Shown piece after piece: positions 795 to 55,464 of a stretch of 64,000 bases of DNA. The position numbers were made by a program, and so were the translations under genes. Position 1 is the first letter of the stretch. Each line of letters begins with the position of its first letter. The DNA comes from Streptococcus merionis DSM 19192 (GTDB lineage Bacteria > Bacillota > Bacilli > Lactobacillales > Streptococcaceae): positions 62,001 through 126,000 of the forward strand of contig NZ_KB904558.1 of assembly GCF_000380085.1 (NCBI RefSeq), in the 5' to 3' direction. Under the pieces are notes generated by a model. The model was not told where the DNA came from. It made no database searches and was given only the letters and a program-made list of their open reading frames with translations.

Positions 795-1757
795 TCATTC
801 AGAAGTTGATGATGACGTCTCTGTCTTGTCGGTCTTGGTGTATTGCGAAAGAAGACCTTGGAAGGCTTGATCTTTAACTTTCACATTGGCTGCTTGAAGT
901 TCATCAGAAACAACGCCTGTGATAAAGGTTGCATCAGCTTTTTTCTGAGCCAAGATCGCTTTTTTCAACGTATCCTGATAATCTTTCCAGTTATCAGACT
1001 TCTCTGTTTTTTCGTTAAGTTTAACCACATAATAGCTGGTTGCATAAGTTTGAGGATCAACGACAGTCACCACAGACTCTCCAACTTTACCTGCTTCAAG
1101 AGCGAAAATAGCCTTTTGCAATTGGGCTGGAATGTCAGTAGAGGTAGAATCAAAAGTGACATTTCCCCCTTTTTCTTTAGTGGCAGTGTCTATCGAATTG
1201 TCCTTAGCTAATTGAGCAAAATCAGCACCCTCGGCCTTAGCTTTTTCAAGGACTTCGTTAGCTTTTGCTTCGTCTGCCAACTTGATGATTTGAGCTTTCA
1301 CTTCAGGTGTATAAGCATCGTAAGCTGCTTTGTAAGCTTCATCAGTCAATTCTTTTTCGGCTGCTTGAGATACTGCATACTCTACCAATTTATTGGTGCG
1401 GATTTGAGACCTATAGCTCTCCTCGGTCATACCGGCTGATGACAGAGCTTTAGCAAAGTTATCACCATATCGCTTCGCACTTTCCTCGTAAGCCTTTTGA
1501 ACCTCTTCATCGGTCACCTTTGAGCCATATTTAGCTTCAAAGATAGAGGTGATGACTTGTTCGAGAAGAACTTGTTGAGCGGCCTTATTGTTTTTGACCA
1601 CATCATAAAATTCTGAAACGGTGATGGTATCACCTTTCATCGTAATGATGTCTGAATCTGCGTTTGTTTTTGAAGTCACTGATAAGGTTGCTACTGAAGC
1701 AATGACTGCTGTCGCAATCAAGGCAATACCAGTGCCGACAATAGATTTTCTATTCAT
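795..1757 (-). CDS. prsA: PrsA-like foldase (parvulin-type), no lipobox
   Basis: A 320-residue exported foldase that helps secreted proteins fold outside the membrane. The N-terminus (MNRKSIVGTGIALIATAVIA) is a signal/anchor segment, followed by the conserved IITMKGDTITVSEFYDVV and a SurA-like helical part. A parvulin-like domain occupies roughly residues 150-250 (KAEGADFAQLAKDNS). The usual parvulin HIL motif reads QII, so the catalytic histidine is absent, as in pneumococcal PpmA. The lipobox cysteine expected in PrsA lipoproteins is also missing: the segment runs VATLSVTSKTNADSD with no Cys. It may be a cleaved secreted protein or membrane-anchored. The start follows GGAG at a normal distance. 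Confidence 0.88.
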   Translation of the reverse strand: MNRKSIVGTGIALIATAVIASVATLSVTSKTNADSDIITMKGDTITVSEFYDVVKNNKAAQQVLLEQVITSIFEAKYGSKVTDEEVQKAYEESAKRYGDNFAKALSSAGMTEESYRSQIRTNKLVEYAVSQAAEKELTDEAYKAAYDAYTPEVKAQIIKLADEAKANEVLEKAKAEGADFAQLAKDNSIDTATKEKGGNVTFDSTSTDIPAQLQKAIFALEAGKVGESVVTVVDPQTYATSYYVVKLNEKTEKSDNWKDYQDTLKKAILAQKKADATFITGVVSDELQAANVKVKDQAFQGLLSQYTKTDKTETSSSTSE

Positions 1758-2549: not shown

Positions 2550-2642
2550 CAAAAAGTAGAGAAAACCTAGTCTGACGAAGTAGCCACTCTCTATATAATT
2601 AAGTTTAAGTCAAAAACGAATTTTCTTTATCACTCCTCGGAT

Positions 2643-2677
2643 AAAAGGGGATTGAACAGACTGTCCCATCCCCTTTT
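2643..2677 (-). terminator. Terminator after the wall-protein gene
   Basis: Ten-base inverted arms AAAAGGGGAT (2643-2652) and ATCCCCTTTT (2668-2677) form a hairpin with a T-tract on either strand. It lies 45 bp downstream of the wall-protein stop codon. Confidence 0.8.
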
Positions 2678-2721
2678 ACATGTATACGCTAAGAGCGTTC
2701 TTGCGCTCTTTTGGACTCATG

Positions 2722-45281: not shown

Positions 45282-47163
45282 GCGAAATCACGCGCACCCG
45301 CAAAGGGTGCGACCTATCTATGTACGAGTTAGCACAAGTTTACAAGCCATTTCAATCCACGCACCCGCGAAGGGTGCGACAAAACGAGCTGGGAACCTCG
45401 CAAAAAGCAACCTAATTTCAATCCACGCACCCGCGAAGGGTGCGACTAAGTTGCAGGCAATGGACAATCTGGCCAAAATATTTCAATCCACGCACCCGCG
45501 AAGGGTGCGACCTAGCGCCACCATTTCGAGATCCAGTTGGTACTATTTCAATCCACGCACCCGCGAAGGGTGCGACCCTCGGAGCGACAAGTGCTGGAAC
45601 TTTGCAGACATTTCAATCCACGCACCCGCGAAGGGTGCGACAAATACCCTGTGTCTATTATACCATAAAGGAGAATTTCAATCCACGCACCCGCGAAGGG
45701 TGCGACGGGCCTATGGACGACTTTGCTAGACGCTGGCAAATTTCAATCCACGCACCCGCGAAGGGTGCGACTTGCCACCAAGTGCTTCAATGTATAGCTC
45801 ATTGAATTTCAATCCACGCACCCGCGAAGGGTGCGACCCAATTCGCATCAGCTACATCAACGACTTGTTCCATTTCAATCCACGCACCCGCGAAGGGTGC
45901 GACATGACTTATCAAATAAAAAATATCGTAAGACCCATTTCAATCCACGCACCCGCGAAGGGTGCGACATGGTCTAGGTGGTTCATCATCAAAAGCCCCT
46001 TATTTCAATCCACGCACCCGCGAAGGGTGCGAAGGTTTAGTCTGTTTTTAACCTAGTTCGAATAGTATTTCAATCCACGCACCCGCGAAGGGTGCGACGT
46101 AGCCTCCTGTGCTATAATGAAGCTATCATTACGGATTTCAATCCACGCACCCGCGAAGGGTGCGACTGTCTATGTCGATTTAGGCTTTAATGTTGGTTCC
46201 ATTTCAATCCACGCACCCGCGAAGGGTGCGACAGTACGAGGACATCTTTATAGATTATCCGCCAGCAATTTCAATCCACGCACCCGCGAAGGGTGCGACT
46301 GTTGATAGTCTTTACTCATGATAGCTGTATCAGGATTTCAATCCACGCACCCGCGAAGGGTGCGACGGTCGGAGTCCTGTCAGTGTTTGCACAGCTAGAA
46401 CGAATTTCAATCCACGCACCCGCGAAGGGTGCGACACAAATCCTAATGTATCATCAAGATATGTACTTATTTCAATCCACGCACCCGCGAAGGGTGCGAC
46501 AAGGTAATAGTCTTAGTCTCGTAACGATTACTTTATTTCAATCCACGCACCCGCGAAGGGTGCGACTCAAATCACAGAAATTATCGTCACGTCAGCATTG
46601 GATTTCAATCCACGCACCCGCGAAGGGTGCGACGCATTGAGCGATACCTGAGAGCATATACTTGGCCTATTTCAATCCACGCACCCGCGAAGGGTGCGAC
46701 CGAAGTTTTTCATGGACAAATGGAAATCACTCTTATTTCAATCCACGCACCCGCGAAGGGTGCGACTCAACATGTTTCAAAATAGCGTCTCTTGAATTGA
46801 TTTCAATCCACGCACCCGCGAAGGGTGCGACGTTTCCCGGACTTTCTGCGGCCATACATCAACCAGATATTTCAATCCACGCACCCGCGAAGGGTGCGAC
46901 TTTAGATACGCGGTCAATGCTGTACTAGCCACCGCAATTTCAATCCACGCACCCGCGAAGGGTGCGACAAAATGAGTTTCGGAGGTAGTTTATGACACCG
47001 AATTTCAATCCACGCACCCGCGAAGGGTGCGACAAAATGAGTTGCGGAGGTAGTTTATGACACCGAATTTCAATCCACGCACCCGCGAAGGGTGCGACTT
47101 GATAAGCTGGGTTAATTGAACTTATAAAATCATTTCAATCCACGCACCCGCGAAGGGTGCGAC
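45282..47163 (-). CRISPR. Type I-C CRISPR array, 28 repeats plus a degenerate terminal repeat, 28 spacers
   Basis: The 32-bp repeat, read on the minus strand, begins GTCGCACCC and ends GTGGATTGAAAT, with a GCACCC/GGGTGC hairpin. I placed 28 repeats starting at 45349 and ending at 47163, all alike except the one at 46002-46033, whose 5'-most base in crRNA orientation differs. A 29th, at 45282-45313, keeps the hairpin but has lost the handle half and is the leader-distal end. Spacers are 33-37 bp. Two leader-proximal neighbours (46969-47001, 47034-47066) differ by one base. The leader lies between 47163 and cas2. Confidence 0.99.
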
Positions 47164-47310
47164 GGCGCGTAGAGACACCGTTTGTGGGCCACATTGGCGA
47201 TCTAGAAAGCACTTTTTAGCTTCTAAAACTGCAAAAATGACCCATTTTTCCTATTTTTTTGCGCGAACCTCCCGTACTTTTATGAGTAACAAGGGTTCGC
47301 AAAGTATTTT
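47164..47310 (-). promoter_or_regulatory. CRISPR leader
   Basis: An A/T-rich, non-coding stretch between cas2 and the first repeat. It carries an inverted pair TTTGCGAACC / GGTTCGCGCAAA (about 47261-47305), common in type I-C leaders. No clear -35/-10 was found, but crRNA transcription should start here on the minus strand. Confidence 0.8.
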
Positions 47311-49309: not shown

Positions 49310-50158
49310 TTACAGTCCTTCTAGGATTTCAACCTTCAACCCTTTTTCTTGGTAACTTTCTAGTTTTTCTTGATTCAACCTGATGGCATAATCTTCATAG
49401 CTATTCTTGTCTAACTGCTCCTTATTAAATTCTAACAAATCAAAGACACGCGCGCTAGACACATTTCCTAATTTGCTGGAGTGTGTAAACCAAAACACTT
49501 CACGAATACGCATAGATCCCTCAGGTCGAGCCGATGAGGCATCATTTTCAAAGAGACTCAGCAGAGCTTCCTTAATAACCTCAGCATCCGCATCTGAAAA
49601 ACCAGTTTTCTCTGCAAAATGAGCATTAATAGACCCCTTAATGACATAAACACCATAATCCACAAAATGCTTAGTTCCCATCGTATCCGAAGAGCGACCA
49701 CTATCATTTTTGGCTTCCATCCCGTTGGTGCTTCGAGTAATTTGAAGGCTGGAAATGACAATTGGTTCTAAGGACTTAGCCATGCTAATCGAAACTGGCC
49801 CTCGAACACCAATAGATTTTTTCAAATAAGTGAAAACTTGTCCAAAACTACGCACATCCAACCATAGTTGATTAGCTGTTTCTTCAACTTCTTGATCAGG
49901 TGTCTTGGCAGTAAAATGATTTGAGAAACGCTTCTCAAGCGAGCGAAATTCATCTTCAATTCGATCACCAGCCTGCACAAATATCGGATACCCCATATCT
50001 TGCATGCGATTTCTGATTTTGCGTTTGATCGAAACATCACTCATCAATCCAAACCCTTTGGCATCTGTTCTGGGCATATTGCCAGATAACGGATCCCCAT
50101 TGGCATTAGCCTCTCTCACCTCAATAGTTGCCATAAAATCAATCTTATGTTCTAACAT
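49310..50158 (-). CDS. cas7c: Cascade backbone subunit Cas7c (Csd2)
   Basis: A 282-residue RAMP-fold protein forming the crRNA-binding filament (six to seven copies in I-C Cascade). HKIDFMATIEVREANANGDPLSGNMPRTDAKGFGLMSDVSIKRKIRNRMQ is the typical Csd2 N-terminus; the thumb-like finger is GTKHFVDYGVYVIKGSINAHF. It starts 3 bases after cas8c on the minus strand. Each Cas7 flips out every sixth crRNA base, relevant for the pseudo-spacer at 53009-53032. Confidence 0.96.
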   Translation of the reverse strand: MLEHKIDFMATIEVREANANGDPLSGNMPRTDAKGFGLMSDVSIKRKIRNRMQDMGYPIFVQAGDRIEDEFRSLEKRFSNHFTAKTPDQEVEETANQLWLDVRSFGQVFTYLKKSIGVRGPVSISMAKSLEPIVISSLQITRSTNGMEAKNDSGRSSDTMGTKHFVDYGVYVIKGSINAHFAEKTGFSDADAEVIKEALLSLFENDASSARPEGSMRIREVFWFTHSSKLGNVSSARVFDLLEFNKEQLDKNSYEDYAIRLNQEKLESYQEKGLKVEILEGL

Positions 50159-50161
50159 GAC

Positions 50162-50557
50162 TTAGTCCTCACTTTCAGTTTTAACTTGTTTGGTATAAAA
50201 GAAACGTTTTTCAGCATAATAGCCAAAAAGAAACATGTATTCAAGAGCTTGATTGAACTGTCTAGAAGTGAATTGATTCATTAATCGCTCCATAATTTGC
50301 TCCTTTTCCTTGGCCAATTTATGCCAAAGCCCTGGACGATTCAGCTTCAAGACTTCCTCATAAGGTTTGATCTTGTTTTCCAAAAGCATCATCATCTTAG
50401 CTGGTTGGCCAGTATAAGCAGTCCAATACCGCTCTGCATTTGTGATTCTCTCCTGAGAATTGCCATCCATCACATAGCGCTGAGTTTCAATCAACTCGTA
50501 AATCGCTAAAAGCCTTCCGAAGAGGTAAGACCTGTCATGATTTTCCTGATCTATCAT
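50162..50557 (-). CDS. cas11c: Cas11c small subunit from an internal start in cas8c
   Basis: In type I-C systems the small subunit Cas11c is translated from within cas8c. Here an in-frame ATG at 50557 (residue 495 of Cas8c) follows an AAGGTG ribosome-binding-like site 9 bases upstream and would give 131 residues (MIDQENHDRSYLFGRLLAIYE...), all helical. Position and length match those of known I-C Cas11c. The start is inferred; no separate promoter. Confidence 0.7.
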   Translation of the reverse strand: MIDQENHDRSYLFGRLLAIYELIETQRYVMDGNSQERITNAERYWTAYTGQPAKMMMLLENKIKPYEEVLKLNRPGLWHKLAKEKEQIMERLMNQFTSRQFNQALEYMFLFGYYAEKRFFYTKQVKTESED

Positions 50558-52039
50558 TGGCGTGAACACCTTTCTATTTTGCTTTTGTAATACTGCTAAA
50601 CTCACATATTGCAGTTGATACCAAGTTTTAGGATATTTTTGCCGTTGCCTAATATTTTCTTGCAGCTTATGGACCAAAGCTCTAGGAATTTCTTGTCCAT
50701 CCAGCAAAGCTGTTACCAATTGCTGATATTGATCGCTGAGAAAGCTATCGTTATCCAACTCTAAATAGCGACCACGATCAACCCCATAGGCAGCCACGAT
50801 AATCTCTCTGAAGCTCGGTGTTTTTTGATAATAACCAACACCACCTTTCAATTGACGCTCCCAAGAGTAAGAATCCTGCCATTTTTCAAGATGTTTTAAC
50901 AATCTCGATCCCTGTAATTGTCGAAAATATTTGAGAGCAATACGCCCATCATTTGTTTTGTTTAAGATAGCCGCGTTATAAGTTGAGCTATTTTGGAAGA
51001 TTTTAGTACCTCTTGTAAAAGAGTCACTAATATTACGATTATCGTCCTTGACAGTAAATGCCGCAGTCTCATCTTCCTCTTCATCGTAATCACCGAAAAA
51101 ATCAGAAGCTGTAATATCCAATGCACTGTCATTGACAAGGTCACTATCAAACCAATTAATCAGATGTTGTCCAGAACCCAACCAGGCATGGGTTTTCTCC
51201 CTTTCAAGCAGGAACTTTGCCATTAAATGAATCTTTTCAGAGGTCTTATTGCCAACTGTAAACACATCCTCACGTTCTCTAAAACGCCCCTTATAGGCTT
51301 CACCATTATTACTCACCGAAATGAGTTTGGCATTTCCTAGAAGCCCCCTATGTTTAGTTGCCAAAATCTCTAAATCGCCACTGATATTGCAGCGGATTTT
51401 TTCTGCATCTGCGGCCTCAACCACCTTGATATAATCCTGATGAAGTTCTTGGTAATTGCTGACAGAAACTGTCTTTAAACCGATAAAATTGTCTATTGCA
51501 AACTCTAGGAAACAGGCAGATAAATCCGTATCTTTTTCTTTTCCATCAAATACAGTCGTAATCTTCAAACCATCACGACGATACTCTTTTCCAAAGAGTG
51601 ATCGGCAAATCACATCCAGAAAGTCAGCTCTTTTGATAAATCCTTGAATCAGCTCAAGATATGATTTCACTGTTTTATCTTGGGAAGAGCCTATCCAGCT
51701 TTCAAGCTGACGGTGAAATGTCTGATACTGAGATTCATTCTGTTCTGAAACATAATAAGACAGTTTATCGACCAAGGGATGGGGAGCAGGATTTTTCCCA
51801 GAACGCGCCACCGAATCAGGTGTTACAGGAAAAACAATACTTGTTTCTGCTCCCATAAATTCGGCACGCATAAAGTTGCCAGACTGATCCAATTGGACGA
51901 AAATGATATTCTTTCCATTAGATTTGAGACTCGTGTGGTAACGTGGCAAAAGGAGCGTTTTTCCTTTTTCAGGATTATCCACCCATCCTGTTTCTTCTGC
52001 CTTGTCGTAAGTTTTTAAAAGCGAGGTAAAGAAATCCAT
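50162..52039 (-). CDS. cas8c: Cascade large subunit Cas8c (Csd1)
   Basis: A 625-residue large subunit that reads the PAM. It begins MDFFTSLLKTYDKAEETGWVDNPEKGKTLLLPRYHTSLKSNGKNIIF, the standard Csd1 opening, and ends with a helical part (about 495-625) which is likely also made separately as Cas11c. I chose ATG 52039, which overlaps the cas5c stop (TGATG); a GTG one codon earlier is possible. Complete. Confidence 0.95.
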   Translation of the reverse strand: MDFFTSLLKTYDKAEETGWVDNPEKGKTLLLPRYHTSLKSNGKNIIFVQLDQSGNFMRAEFMGAETSIVFPVTPDSVARSGKNPAPHPLVDKLSYYVSEQNESQYQTFHRQLESWIGSSQDKTVKSYLELIQGFIKRADFLDVICRSLFGKEYRRDGLKITTVFDGKEKDTDLSACFLEFAIDNFIGLKTVSVSNYQELHQDYIKVVEAADAEKIRCNISGDLEILATKHRGLLGNAKLISVSNNGEAYKGRFREREDVFTVGNKTSEKIHLMAKFLLEREKTHAWLGSGQHLINWFDSDLVNDSALDITASDFFGDYDEEEDETAAFTVKDDNRNISDSFTRGTKIFQNSSTYNAAILNKTNDGRIALKYFRQLQGSRLLKHLEKWQDSYSWERQLKGGVGYYQKTPSFREIIVAAYGVDRGRYLELDNDSFLSDQYQQLVTALLDGQEIPRALVHKLQENIRQRQKYPKTWYQLQYVSLAVLQKQNRKVFTPMIDQENHDRSYLFGRLLAIYELIETQRYVMDGNSQERITNAERYWTAYTGQPAKMMMLLENKIKPYEEVLKLNRPGLWHKLAKEKEQIMERLMNQFTSRQFNQALEYMFLFGYYAEKRFFYTKQVKTESED

Positions 52040-52776
52040 CACTGACCTCCTTCTTCTCGGACACGATCTACTTCATATGCCTCATATTCATCTTCTACCG
52101 AGCGAACAGGGCCAGATACTTTAAATGCATAGCTCGAAAGAGTATTGACAATCTCACAGTCTTCCTGAGGCTTAAAATGAATCCTGCCATCCGTCATAAC
52201 TGTCCTTGTAAAAAAGGATCGCAAAGGTTGACTCTTATCCTTGGGGTAAGCAAAGGAATGAAACATAACACCGAAATCAATCTCTTGACCATCATATTCA
52301 GTTGATGCTGATTCGTAGTCGTCTTGACTAATTTCTTCCACTAGACCAAGACATTCTCTCGTTCCCAAAAAAACATCTCTTCGCCCACCTTTACGGATAG
52401 AGCGTGCCATAATGGCCTCATGTTTATTGGGCAATCGGTCTTGTATCAAGTCTGGACGATCTTCATTCCAAATAAAGTGAAATTTCACTAAATAATCCAC
52501 TTCGCTAAGGTAAGAGACATAACTCAAATCAGCTCCATAGTTCGCTAGCAAGGCCCGAACACCATGCAGCTCCGTCTGTATTTGATTGACAACCTTCACC
52601 TCAGTCACGACATTGGTAATAGTTGGCTTGTGATAAACACTATCAACAATGCCTTGCAAAGCCTGCTTAGTAGGCACAGCGTAGGAGCTACGCTCTCCAC
52701 CCCCTTTGGTCGCAGGGTTTGTGAATAGTGCCCTATCACCAGTCACTCGTAAATAGAAATTCCGTGATCTATACAC
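52039..52776 (-). CDS. cas5c: crRNA endonuclease and Cascade subunit Cas5c (Cas5d)
   Basis: A 245-residue RAMP protein that, in type I-C, cuts the repeat transcript and holds the crRNA 5' handle. MYRSRNFYLRVTGDRALFTNPATKGGGERSSYAVPTKQALQGIVDSVYHKPT is the Cas5d N-terminus with the conserved YHKP-type segment; the rest is normal. The start codon is GTG at 52776, with AGGAGG seven bases before. It opens the cas5-8-7-4-1-2 operon, which has its own promoter. Confidence 0.95.
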   Translation of the reverse strand: MYRSRNFYLRVTGDRALFTNPATKGGGERSSYAVPTKQALQGIVDSVYHKPTITNVVTEVKVVNQIQTELHGVRALLANYGADLSYVSYLSEVDYLVKFHFIWNEDRPDLIQDRLPNKHEAIMARSIRKGGRRDVFLGTRECLGLVEEISQDDYESASTEYDGQEIDFGVMFHSFAYPKDKSQPLRSFFTRTVMTDGRIHFKPQEDCEIVNTLSSYAFKVSGPVRSVEDEYEAYEVDRVREEGGQ

Positions 52777-52850: not shown

Positions 52851-52867
52851 TTGTAAACGCTTTACAA
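52851..52867. promoter_or_regulatory. Palindromic operator at the cas5 transcription start
   Basis: TTGTAAACGCTTTACAA consists of perfect 7-base arms around CGC and overlaps the predicted +1 of the cas5 promoter. It resembles a cre site with one extra central base. A similar half-site, TTGTAAGCG, lies at 55505-55513 in the cas3 promoter. A repressor site is likely; the regulator is unknown. Confidence 0.6.
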
Positions 52868-52872
52868 GCGTT

Positions 52873-52901
52873 AGTATATCATTTTAAGAATCTCTTGTCA
52901 A
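52873..52901 (-). promoter_or_regulatory. Promoter of the cas5-cas8-cas7-cas4-cas1-cas2 operon
   Basis: Minus strand: -35 TTGACA (52901-52896), 17-bp spacer, -10 TATACT (52878-52873). A near-consensus sigma-A promoter; +1 at about 52866, giving a 90-base leader before the cas5c GTG. Confidence 0.85.
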
Positions 52902-52909
52902 CAATTTTA

Positions 52910-52936
52910 TTCATCATTCTTTGTAATAAAATTTAA
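52910..52936 (+). promoter_or_regulatory. Putative Cascade target site for the crRNA-like RNA (TTC PAM plus protospacer)
   Basis: TTC (52910-52912) followed by ATCAT-t-CTTTG-t-AA, which equals the first 14 bases of the pseudo-spacer at 53009-53022 except at positions 6 and 12. Beyond position 14 the match ends. The site lies 8 bases upstream of the cas5 -35 and just before the -35 of the divergent RNA, so a bound Cascade could block both. Confidence 0.8.
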
Positions 52937-52946
52937 AAAATAGGTT

Positions 52947-52975
52947 TTGATTTCGAAAAAATTACTTGATATACT
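52947..52975 (+). promoter_or_regulatory. Promoter of the crRNA-like RNA
   Basis: Plus strand: -35 TTGATT (52947-52952), 17-bp spacer, -10 TATACT (52970-52975); +1 near 52982. Confidence 0.8.
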
Positions 52976-52981
52976 GTTATT

Positions 52982-53085
52982 ATCATCATTAAAGATGTGG
53001 ATTGAAATATCATACTTTGGAAGTATTGATCGGTCGCAGGCAGCTTTTTCTTGTCCTAGAAGATAAAGCTGTCTGCTTCTTTTTT
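52982..53085 (+). ncRNA. CreR-like crRNA-mimic RNA (putative Cascade-guided cas autorepressor)
   Basis: Antisense to the cas genes, between cas3 and cas5c. Order: about 15 nt of leader; GTGGATTGAAAT (52997-53008), identical to the 3' end of the CRISPR repeat and covering the whole I-C 5' handle; a 24-nt pseudo-spacer (53009-53032; real spacers are 33-37); GTCGCA (53033-53038), identical to the repeat start; then a stem GCAGGCAGCTTT / AAAGCTGTCTGC and TTCTTTTTT, an intrinsic terminator. The pseudo-spacer's first 14 bases match the site beside the cas5 promoter. It overlaps the last codons of cas3 in antisense. Naming follows known CreR/CreA RNAs; activity is inferred. Confidence 0.82.
53036..53085 (+). 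terminator. Terminator of the crRNA-like RNA
   Basis: GCAGGCAGCTTT (53036-53047) pairs with AAAGCTGTCTGC (53065-53076) with one G-U pair, then TTCTTTTTT. It overlaps the cas3 stop codon region. The stem also replaces the repeat hairpin after GTC. Confidence 0.88.
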
Positions 53086-55464
53086 AACACCAATCACATC
53101 ATCGTAATATTCTTCTTGCAAAAACAAAACTTGACCATTTAGATATGATCGAGTCGCTTTGAGCAACTCGTCTGTCTCTCTGAGATTCACGGTGAATAGT
53201 TGTAACTTTTTCAAGTCCTCTTTTATGTCTCTGAGGTCTTCCAATTCTGGAAAAGTTGGCAGTGCCGCTAATCGATCTTCCAAATTCAGCAGCGCTTCTT
53301 CCCAATCTTTATGAAAGACAAAAACTCCAAGACTCTCATCATCAATCAAGTCCATCTTCTGTCCAGCTGTCTTAAAGGATTGACGCAAAGCCCCTTTTTT
53401 CGGACCAGAGTACGAGTTAGAGCTGAGATAATCGTAAACCGTGTCATTATCACCAACTGGATAAGACAGTGTTCTGGCATCTTCATTTGCAAAATATTTC
53501 TCAAAATAAATAGCATTCAATCGAGAAACATCAATCGGTGATGAGAGACCATGCAAAATGTCCTCCGTCACCTTTTTCTTGTCTCTGATAGCCTTTAATC
53601 GCGAAAGATTCTCCTCCTCTTTGCTGACATTGACAAGAGTGACACACCCTTTTTCACGCTTTCCTTCACGATTACAGCGGCCACTAGCTTGCACAATAGA
53701 ATCAAGTCCAGCATAAGAGCGAACCACCTGTTCAAAATCTAAATCAACCCCTGCTTCAATCAGTTGTGTACTCACACAAATCAAAGGAAGCCCAGCCTCT
53801 AGCCCTTCTTTTACCTCAGCAATGACATTTAGGCGGTGTTGAGGACACATGTTGGTCGACAGATAATAAAGCGGGCGATCGGTTTGCCCCTCAAGCAGTT
53901 GATAAAGCCGCCCAACACTTTTCTTTGTATTCAGAACAATGAGAGTCGATTGATTCTGCTTCAAAATGCTATCAGCTAAGTCGGTTAGACTGGTTTTCTC
54001 ATCTTGCTCATCAAATTTAAAAAGTTCTGTCCTTTGAAAAACAACCTGTTCATTCGCAGACAATTCTACAATATCAGGCTTCTCACCATTTTTTCCACCA
54101 TATTGGATAGGATGAGCAATGCTCTTAGAATCATAAATCGGTTGAGTTGCGGTGCACAAAACAACCGTAGCTCCCATAACACGGCTCAAAAAGTTCATGG
54201 TGAGATTGAAGAGCGTTGTCACTTCAATCGGCAGTGACTGGACTTCGTCCAAAATCACAATACTATCAATCAGACTGGAAAACCGCCTGATATTGGCAGA
54301 CTTAGTTTTAAAAAGCGTTTGAAAAAACTGCACCATAGTCGTTAAGACAACTGGACTATCCCAGCTATCCAACAGATAAGCAGATAATAATTCCTCTTGC
54401 TCACCAACTTCTTCTCCCTGATCACTTTTATCCTTAACCACATTTGAGTGATGCTCTAGAACGCCATTTTCTCCAATCACCTTTTTCATGGCTTGAGCAT
54501 TCTGCTCCAAGACTGATAAATAAGGCGTCACATAGAAAAAGCGTTGTTTCTGCTGGAGAACCATCTGGTGGCTTGCATATCGTAAACTTAAATTGGTTTT
54601 TCCAGCACCTGTCGGTAAATTCAAACGGTAAATACCTGGACCGTCAGTAGTTCCACGCTCTTGCACGCGAGTAGCTACTTGATTTCTGATACGATTTATA
54701 GGCGTTTTGGGATCAGCAAAACCAGCATAAAGCTCCTCGACAGATTTTAAATAGGCTTTAGCTAAATACTTGGTTTCATCAGGATTGGGAGGTGTTAATA
54801 GCGTCTCATAAGCATTGATGGTATCTAAAATATCAGCGTTTTTTAGAAGAGACAAATAAAGCCTTACCACACAGGCATTGTAAAAATCTTTTTCTCCGTC
54901 ATCATTGTAGGATACCTTTGTCCAGATCGATGAGAAATTCTCAAAAGCAAGGGTAATAAGATGATCCAAACTCTCGTATCCGTATTGGGGAAGTTGCTTT
55001 TCCAAAATACTGGCAAAATCTTCAACATCTGGTTGATAGTGATAACCTTCTTCAAAACCAAAGCATCTTTTGGCTAACTTATTGAATTGAAAAAAAGCGC
55101 TGTTATCCGCATCAAAGCGAATATCATACATGCCGTGGTGAGCAGATATGACGTAAGCCACGATCTCATTGAAGAGGTTGAATTCTTTTTTTGAAATATT
55201 CTGTCTTTTTAGGACAAGGCGAATCTTTGCAAATAGATACTTTGCTCCAGCATAGGAATGATCCACATGCAAATTCGGTTTTCGGGTTAACTTTTCTTGA
55301 AAATTCCTGTCAGCCTTTCCTAAATCATGGAAAAGACCGATAAGAAAAAGGGCATCTCCTTGATCGATAGCATCCGCTTCAGACCTAGCCTTCTCAGCAA
55401 CTAAAAACAAATGGTCCTCTAACAATTGAGATTCTCCCGTTTCTAGACGATAGTGTGCAAACAT
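53056..55464 (-). CDS. cas3: CRISPR helicase-nuclease Cas3 (type I-C)
   Basis: An 802-residue effector with N-terminal HD nuclease and SF2 helicase. HD residues are in LIGLFHDLGKADRNF, HVDHSYAGAKY and VISAHHGMYD; the helicase has Walker A NLPTGAGKTNLSLRYA (about 286), DEVQ box IVILDEVQSLP, motif III LCTATQP and motif VI QASGRCNREGKR. Complete. It has a separate promoter and a 280-base gap to cas5c, which carries the crRNA-like RNA. ATG preceded by AAGGAG. Confidence 0.97.
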   Translation of the reverse strand: MFAHYRLETGESQLLEDHLFLVAEKARSEADAIDQGDALFLIGLFHDLGKADRNFQEKLTRKPNLHVDHSYAGAKYLFAKIRLVLKRQNISKKEFNLFNEIVAYVISAHHGMYDIRFDADNSAFFQFNKLAKRCFGFEEGYHYQPDVEDFASILEKQLPQYGYESLDHLITLAFENFSSIWTKVSYNDDGEKDFYNACVVRLYLSLLKNADILDTINAYETLLTPPNPDETKYLAKAYLKSVEELYAGFADPKTPINRIRNQVATRVQERGTTDGPGIYRLNLPTGAGKTNLSLRYASHQMVLQQKQRFFYVTPYLSVLEQNAQAMKKVIGENGVLEHHSNVVKDKSDQGEEVGEQEELLSAYLLDSWDSPVVLTTMVQFFQTLFKTKSANIRRFSSLIDSIVILDEVQSLPIEVTTLFNLTMNFLSRVMGATVVLCTATQPIYDSKSIAHPIQYGGKNGEKPDIVELSANEQVVFQRTELFKFDEQDEKTSLTDLADSILKQNQSTLIVLNTKKSVGRLYQLLEGQTDRPLYYLSTNMCPQHRLNVIAEVKEGLEAGLPLICVSTQLIEAGVDLDFEQVVRSYAGLDSIVQASGRCNREGKREKGCVTLVNVSKEEENLSRLKAIRDKKKVTEDILHGLSSPIDVSRLNAIYFEKYFANEDARTLSYPVGDNDTVYDYLSSNSYSGPKKGALRQSFKTAGQKMDLIDDESLGVFVFHKDWEEALLNLEDRLAALPTFPELEDLRDIKEDLKKLQLFTVNLRETDELLKATRSYLNGQVLFLQEEYYDDVIGVKKEADSFIF

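Follow-up and report, generated by a model that had tools for sequence, protein, structure and literature searches.

The type I-C cas locus of Streptococcus merionis DSM 19192 raises the question of what is encoded in the 279-bp gap between cas3 and cas5, where, on the strand opposite to the cas genes, there lies a sequence resembling a solitary CRISPR RNA. In the window (by which we mean the whole 64-kb stretch of DNA analysed) the locus occupies the minus strand and comprises cas3, the gap, cas5, cas8c, cas7, cas4, cas1, cas2 and an array, with cas4, cas1 and cas2 identified by Pfam, and the plus strand of the gap carries, divergent to cas, a predicted promoter, a small hairpin, an intact 5′ handle, a pseudo-spacer and a terminator-like hairpin (Table 1). 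We conclude with good confidence that the gap encodes a crRNA-like RNA, the expression of which is predicted, that would guide Cascade to a site just upstream of the predicted cas5 promoter and likely repress the cas operon, in the manner of a type I-C CreR. In particular, it is very likely that the unit is a Cascade guide aimed at the cas5 promoter, and likely, by analogy with known systems and from the geometry of the site, that repression is the outcome.

Table 1 Features of the cas3–cas5 gap and of the surrounding type I-C locus (positions in the window).
Feature	Position	Strand	Basis
Predicted promoter of crRNA-like RNA, TTGATT-17-TATACT, TG before -10	52947..52975	+	Consensus match
Small hairpin CATC-ATTAAA-GATG, directly 5′ of handle	52984..52997	+	Fold and compensatory changes in relatives
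5′ handle (11 nt) TGGATTGAAAT, same as repeat 3′ end	52998..53008	+	Predicted
Pseudo-spacer (guide), 27 nt up to terminator stem	53009..53035	+	Sequence
Intrinsic terminator, hairpin 53036-53076 and T-run; overlaps cas3 end on other strand	53036..53086	+	Predicted
TTC PAM of target	52910..52912	+	Sequence
Target, bases equal to pseudo-spacer 1-5, 7-11, 13-14	52913..52926	+	Sequence
Predicted cas5 operon promoter TTGACA-17-TATACT	52873..52901	-	Best on minus strand of gap
cas3	53056..55464	-	Pfam: Cas3-like_C_2, HD and helicase domains
cas5 (Cas5c/Cas5d), first gene downstream of target promoter	52039..52776	-	PF09704
cas8c (Csd1), Cascade subunit	50162..52042	-	PF09709
cas7 (Csd2), Cascade subunit	49310..50158	-	PF05107
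CRISPR array, 32-nt repeat	45290..47165 (ends approximate)	-	Sequence

Much of this unit had been described in an initial annotation of the locus. The plus-strand promoter proposed there is present (as throughout, a predicted promoter is a consensus match and not a mapped start), and relatives have promoter-like sequences at the equivalent place of the unit, the one in locus L027 being weak. The claim of an exact copy of the repeat 3′ end likewise stands, since GTGGATTGAAAT at 52997-53008 (+) matches the 3′ terminus of the array repeat, GTCGCACCCTTCGCGGGTGCGTGGATTGAAAT, letter for letter; throughout the 64-kb window, GGATTGAAAT is found in 28 array copies (minus strand), once in the gap, and nowhere else. 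(The intervals of the array are 33-37 nt in 25 of the 26 measured; a 98-nt interval reflects an altered repeat near 46030, and two adjacent spacers at 46970-47090 are almost identical.) The second repeat is absent after the handle, so that the unit, with its single handle, does not form a two-repeat array. The letters GTCGCA, read initially as the start of a second repeat, do occur at 53033-53038 (+), but in only one of 20 units, the window's own, and their resemblance to a repeat start is probably due to chance. Similarly, the pseudo-spacer begins at 53009 (+) as annotated, but is 27 nt rather than 24 nt long when measured to the terminator stem. The proposed intrinsic terminator corresponds to a hairpin that precedes a T-run and has a folding energy of -23.9 kcal/mol (z -5.97); a simple terminator scan of the gap region listed 0 terminators, and an Rfam search around the locus returned two uninformative sub-threshold matches, one of them on this hairpin. 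A terminator-like hairpin lies 15-35 nt past the handle in all 19 units that were folded (18 streptococcal units and that of L013; the unit of L026 ends early at its contig edge), and the 3′ end of the RNA is predicted to be this hairpin and not a second repeat. Folding also indicated that positions 53009-53030 of the window's pseudo-spacer are able to fold back over the seed, an arrangement that could hide the seed and may tune the activity of the guide.

The same gap contains a candidate target for this guide. As had been reported, the bases after the TTC PAM read ATCAT.CTTTG.AA, with the only mismatches within positions 1-14 falling at 6 and 12. Counting as core the 15 positions that remain of 1-17 when 6 and 12 are left aside, the TTC-anchored match in the window extends to 13 of 15, and none of 2000 dinucleotide shuffles of the gap reached 13 (the maximum was 12), in agreement with the earlier estimate that the match exceeds chance. 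Moreover, the 17-mer TTCATCATNCTTTGNAA, in which positions 6 and 12 are free, has one exact site in the 2.36-Mb genome; at up to 2 mismatches it has 16 places, and the sole place with a single mismatch has that mismatch in the PAM. A distance of 8 bp separates the PAM from the start of the -35 element of the predicted cas5 promoter. At the predicted cas5 transcription start we also noted a palindrome, TTGTAAACGCTTTACAA (52851-52867), that agrees with the CcpA cre consensus at 15 of 16 positions; in S. mutans, the I-C operon promoter, located there before cas3, is reported to be bound by CcpA and CodY (PMC10434267).

We found cas5 of type I-C in 26 of 284 Streptococcus genomes. A crRNA-like unit lies between cas3 and cas5 in 19 of the 26, and GGATTGAAAT is kept in all 19. 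The comparison with other streptococcal cas3–cas5 gaps called for by the initial annotation therefore came out in favor of a conserved guide and target: every one of these units has a TTC-flanked match in its own gap, covering 12-14 of the 15 core positions, and the letters of guide and target differ between lineages while the pairing stays. When no PAM was demanded, the best match was still TTC-flanked for all 19 streptococcal units and for four of five other units, and TTC is the PAM in all 23 loci that have a target. Among 2000 dinucleotide shuffles per locus, the observed score was reached by none in 16 loci, by one each in L027 and L036, and by 15 in L021; guides placed in the gaps of other spacer clusters scored at most 11 in 238 trials, which is below the own-gap scores.

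Beyond the genus, across the order, 32 of 395 genomes match cas5, two of them being Streptococcus, and loci were obtained from 28 of the remaining 30 (one of these, L055, with only ~0.6 kb of upstream sequence). Five of the 28 loci contain a unit. In L049, L054, L070 and L071, which belong to other families of the order, the unit is accompanied by a matching, TTC-flanked target, and L054 additionally holds, at 961-1200 (+) between unit and cas5, a 79-aa ORF with a DUF4062 match (E 1.4e-10). The E. columbae-type unit (L013/L048) has the hairpin, the handle and the terminator-like hairpin, and we recognised no target in its gap with or without the demand for a PAM. In the phylum, where 32 of 398 genomes match cas5, none of 28 newly read loci outside Lactobacillales had a unit with a target; this search looked for ATTGAAA[TC] at most 1.5 kb upstream of cas5, so that other handles would have been missed, and two matching genomes yielded no locus.

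The unit is thus dispensable, being absent from 7 of the 26 I-C Streptococcus genomes, the gaps of which are short. (By eye, L031 and L037-L039 look as though they lost the unit through a deletion between target and guide, the two constituting a short direct repeat; these four loci retain the terminator region.) Such losses would be expected of a decayed, functionless mini-CRISPR whose guide and target match through an old duplication and common descent, and the L021 shuffles illustrate that short A+T-rich gaps favor chance similarity. However, neutral decay would scatter mismatches along the guide, whereas the mismatches in fact sit at positions 6 and 12. In particular, the numbers of mismatches at positions 1-17 across the 23 loci are 0, 0, 0, 1, 0, 15, 0, 2, 0, 4, 1, 18, 2, 1, 1, 5 and 14. 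In structures of type I-E Cascade, every sixth base is flipped out. Consistent with the earlier suggestion that the mismatches coincide with flip-out positions, 33 of the 46 cells at positions 6 and 12 hold a mismatch, which is about the expectation under free drift, versus 17 of 322 cells at the remaining positions 1-16. Taking one locus from each of the nine spacer clusters, the proportions are 13/18 and 11/126 (Fisher p 1.3e-8, a value that is indicative because the clusters are not fully independent lineages). Some rows fit less well: L036 is mismatched only at position 4 among 1-16, L049 at 8 and 16 with none at 6 or 12, L016 at 6 and 8, and L028 at 6 and 11, while L020, L054, L070 and L071 have an extra mismatch at 10. 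As judged from the letters, the mismatch pattern is what selection for Cascade pairing would leave, unlike decay. Together with the pairing that is kept despite lineage-specific letter changes, the invariant TTC of the target loci, and the covariation of the hairpin described below, this makes decay a very improbable account of the unit.

We assessed the small hairpin in a set of 16 pseudo-repeats (15 streptococcal and one from E. columbae), in which identical ones were entered once and the full repeat of L027 was left out. Both sides of the stem 5′ of the handle are changed in 10 cells, a number equalled by none of 500 shuffles, and the covariation score of the stem was likewise equalled by 0 of 500. 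Two of five covariation measures were not significant (pairs with a double change, equalled by 55 of 500 shuffles, and further pair types, by 267 of 500); three of the six stem pairs never vary, the innermost fails in 7 of the 16 pseudo-repeats, and the window's own hairpin comprises only 4 bp. The hairpin is a remnant of the repeat stem, and we predict that it serves as the Cas5 processing site. In the gap of L027, a full 32-nt repeat with an intact stem stands in place of the degenerate pseudo-repeat, and what appears by eye to be an older degenerate copy lies upstream of it.

An RNA with these properties might simply occupy Cascade as a decoy. Indeed, the Racrs are described as RNAs of phages that imitate CRISPR repeats in the form of solitary units (PMC10651486), and the window's unit shares with them the form of a solitary repeat-like RNA. 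It differs from them in being bacterial, in lying inside a cas locus, and in having a conserved promoter target, and a PAM-flanked target is nothing that a decoy would need; three patterns derived from the unit gave 0 exact matches in viral contigs, and both this and the position in the cas locus speak against a viral origin. A related suggestion, that the RNA acts as an antisense transcript against the cas3 3′ end, draws on the overlap of the RNA 3′ end with the end of cas3 in the window, but in sanguinis-like loci the hairpin precedes the cas3 end. We consider it most unlikely that either the decoy or the antisense function explains the unit.

The placing of the target relative to cas5 bears on what Cascade would do there. 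Of the 16 loci that share the window's orientation, 11 have the PAM edge at a distance of 7-9 bp from the best predicted -35. L016-L018 have a target that overlaps this element, and L020 and L021 one that adjoins it. The target is on the other strand in L023, L027 and L028, where the -35 starts 13-15 bp past position 17, approximately at the end of a full-length protospacer; in L049 and L054 no promoter of comparable placing was found. Since the -35 of the window, 8 bp downstream of the PAM edge, would be left uncovered, one could argue that Cascade bound upstream of it serves not to repress the cas5 promoter but to activate or insulate it. This appears extremely unlikely in view of the overlap with the -35 in L016-L018, and of the CreTA system of Citrobacter rodentium, in which repression is presumed to act on the UP element (PMC12055562).

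A different reading is suggested by what lies between target and cas5 in some of the relatives. In 10 of the 26 genomes (L015-L021, L023, L027 and L028), all of which keep the unit, this interval contains a small ORF of one family, in which P, I and A columns are conserved; the eight ORFs that were measured have 34-45 codons. Judged by the Shine-Dalgarno site, the predicted start is TTG, ATA or ATC in eight; L018 has an additional in-frame ATG four codons on, in L017 a stop precedes an ATG further downstream, and for L027 our script found no start. A profile built from eight of the ten recovered all ten (E <=1.9e-12), each directly upstream of cas5, and among the 284 genomes high-confidence matches occurred only in these ten, directly upstream of I-C cas5. 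Twelve weak matches (8.4e-6 to 0.0022) lie elsewhere in ten further genomes. One of them (L118:1468-1626 (-)) is located between a choline-binding amidase gene and tgt; the protein database contains 38 relatives of this peptide, one of which carries the label Caudoviricetes. Another (L117:1465-1620 (-)) is beside a helix-turn-helix gene; the surroundings of these two, which we inspected, appear prophage-like. Three family members were compared with Pfam and matched nothing. The gap of L020 contains a further small hydrophobic ORF (2587-2712 (-)), also without a Pfam match. A scan of the interval between peptide and cas5 in eight loci, which requires the -10 to end in T, found no promoter scoring >8.5, and both genes may therefore be expressed from the targeted promoter; by eye, L015 has TTGAAA-16-TATAAA in this interval.

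These observations raise the possibility of an addiction module of the CreTA type, in which the unit would be the antitoxin, the leader before cas5 would give rise to a toxic RNA or peptide, and repression of cas would be a side effect. There is a precedent in the type I-E locus of C. rodentium, where a translated toxin, CreT, is encoded between cas3 and casA and the putative target is at an UP element (PMC12055562). The window's unit resembles that system in its position between cas3 and the first Cascade gene, on the opposite strand, and in its PAM-flanked partial target in the UP region, and the ten streptococcal relatives resemble it further in having a tiny ORF downstream. The cas5 tree pairs the window with peptide-bearing L015 (support 85/87, not decisive) and places all seven unit losses inside a peptide-free group of 15 loci (weak support, 80/86); the clustering of losses fits an addiction role, and shared ancestry would produce the same pattern. 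On the other hand, the window itself has no small ORF before cas5 (of at least 20 codons with a start 3-11 nt behind a Shine-Dalgarno-like site, only cas5 starts), and the peptide profile found nothing in genome G000. A toxin gene directly under the Cascade-targeted promoter is thus lacking in the window at the level of ORFs, which leaves a toxic leader RNA as a possibility. The streptococcal peptides are, in turn, candidates for Cascade-repressed toxins, and differ from the C. rodentium toxin in that their predicted starts are mostly non-AUG. For the window we therefore regard an addiction module as improbable. Where the peptide is present, the arrangement bears a closer resemblance to a CreTA-type module, and, given that in 10 of 26 genomes the peptide comes first after the target promoter, the unit may originally have had a role other than autorepression. 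We tentatively propose, as an idea that could well be wrong, that one guide serves two circuits: in the ten genomes it would control the promoter of the peptide and then cas5, providing a CRISPR-repressed suicide or alarm peptide in the cas leader, and the lineage of the window would have dropped the peptide and retained the guide as a pure autorepressor, amounting to a conversion from CreTA to CreR.

Autorepression by CreR, to which we assign the window's unit, is named for types I-B, I-E and V-A in the available text of one review (PMC13131331), and another refers, in its available text, generally to 'Type I and Type V-A' with no subtypes listed (PMC12737573). We found no type I-C CreR in the open literature searched, and the original CreR paper possibly contains an I-C prediction. 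As in the I-B, I-E and V-A systems, the window has a gene for a crRNA-like RNA with a repeat-derived handle beside the cas operon, PAM-flanked partial complementarity to the predicted cas promoter region, and predicted autorepression; among ORFs it has no coupled toxin gene, the candidate peptide gene being confined to the 10 of 26 relatives. It differs from them in belonging to type I-C, with Cas5 instead of Cas6 as the processing enzyme, and in combining one degenerate repeat with a terminator-like 3′ hairpin. Most creA genes have two degenerate repeats, as stated in the accessible part of one paper (PMC8501985). A degenerate repeat that keeps the Cas5-binding handle is also a feature of the Haloarcula hispanica (type I-B) CreTA, since CreA of this type preserves the letters bound by Cas5 in the first of its degenerate repeats (PMC9458426); the toxin there, however, is a tRNA-sequestering RNA.

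We envisage that the RNA would be transcribed from the plus-strand promoter in the gap, cut at the small hairpin's base by Cas5, yielding the 11-nt handle, and loaded into the Cas5-Cas8c-Cas7 complex. As only ~14-16 positions pair, Cascade would then bind without efficient Cas3 action and block RNA polymerase at the -35/UP region of the cas5 promoter. With a length of 33 bp, the protospacer would extend to 52945 and leave 1 bp before the -35 of the RNA's own promoter (52947), so that this promoter would perhaps be dampened too. Repression would be released when ordinary crRNAs occupy Cascade or when an anti-CRISPR blocks it. If such guide-based feedback operates, anti-CRISPRs directed against type I-C would raise cas expression. 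The unit would also offer a natural, evolution-tested example of the positions that I-C Cascade needs for binding, namely 1-5, 7-11 and 13-16, and not 6 or 12. Finally, the peptide-bearing relatives would allow the transition between an addiction module and an autorepressor to be put to the test inside one genus.
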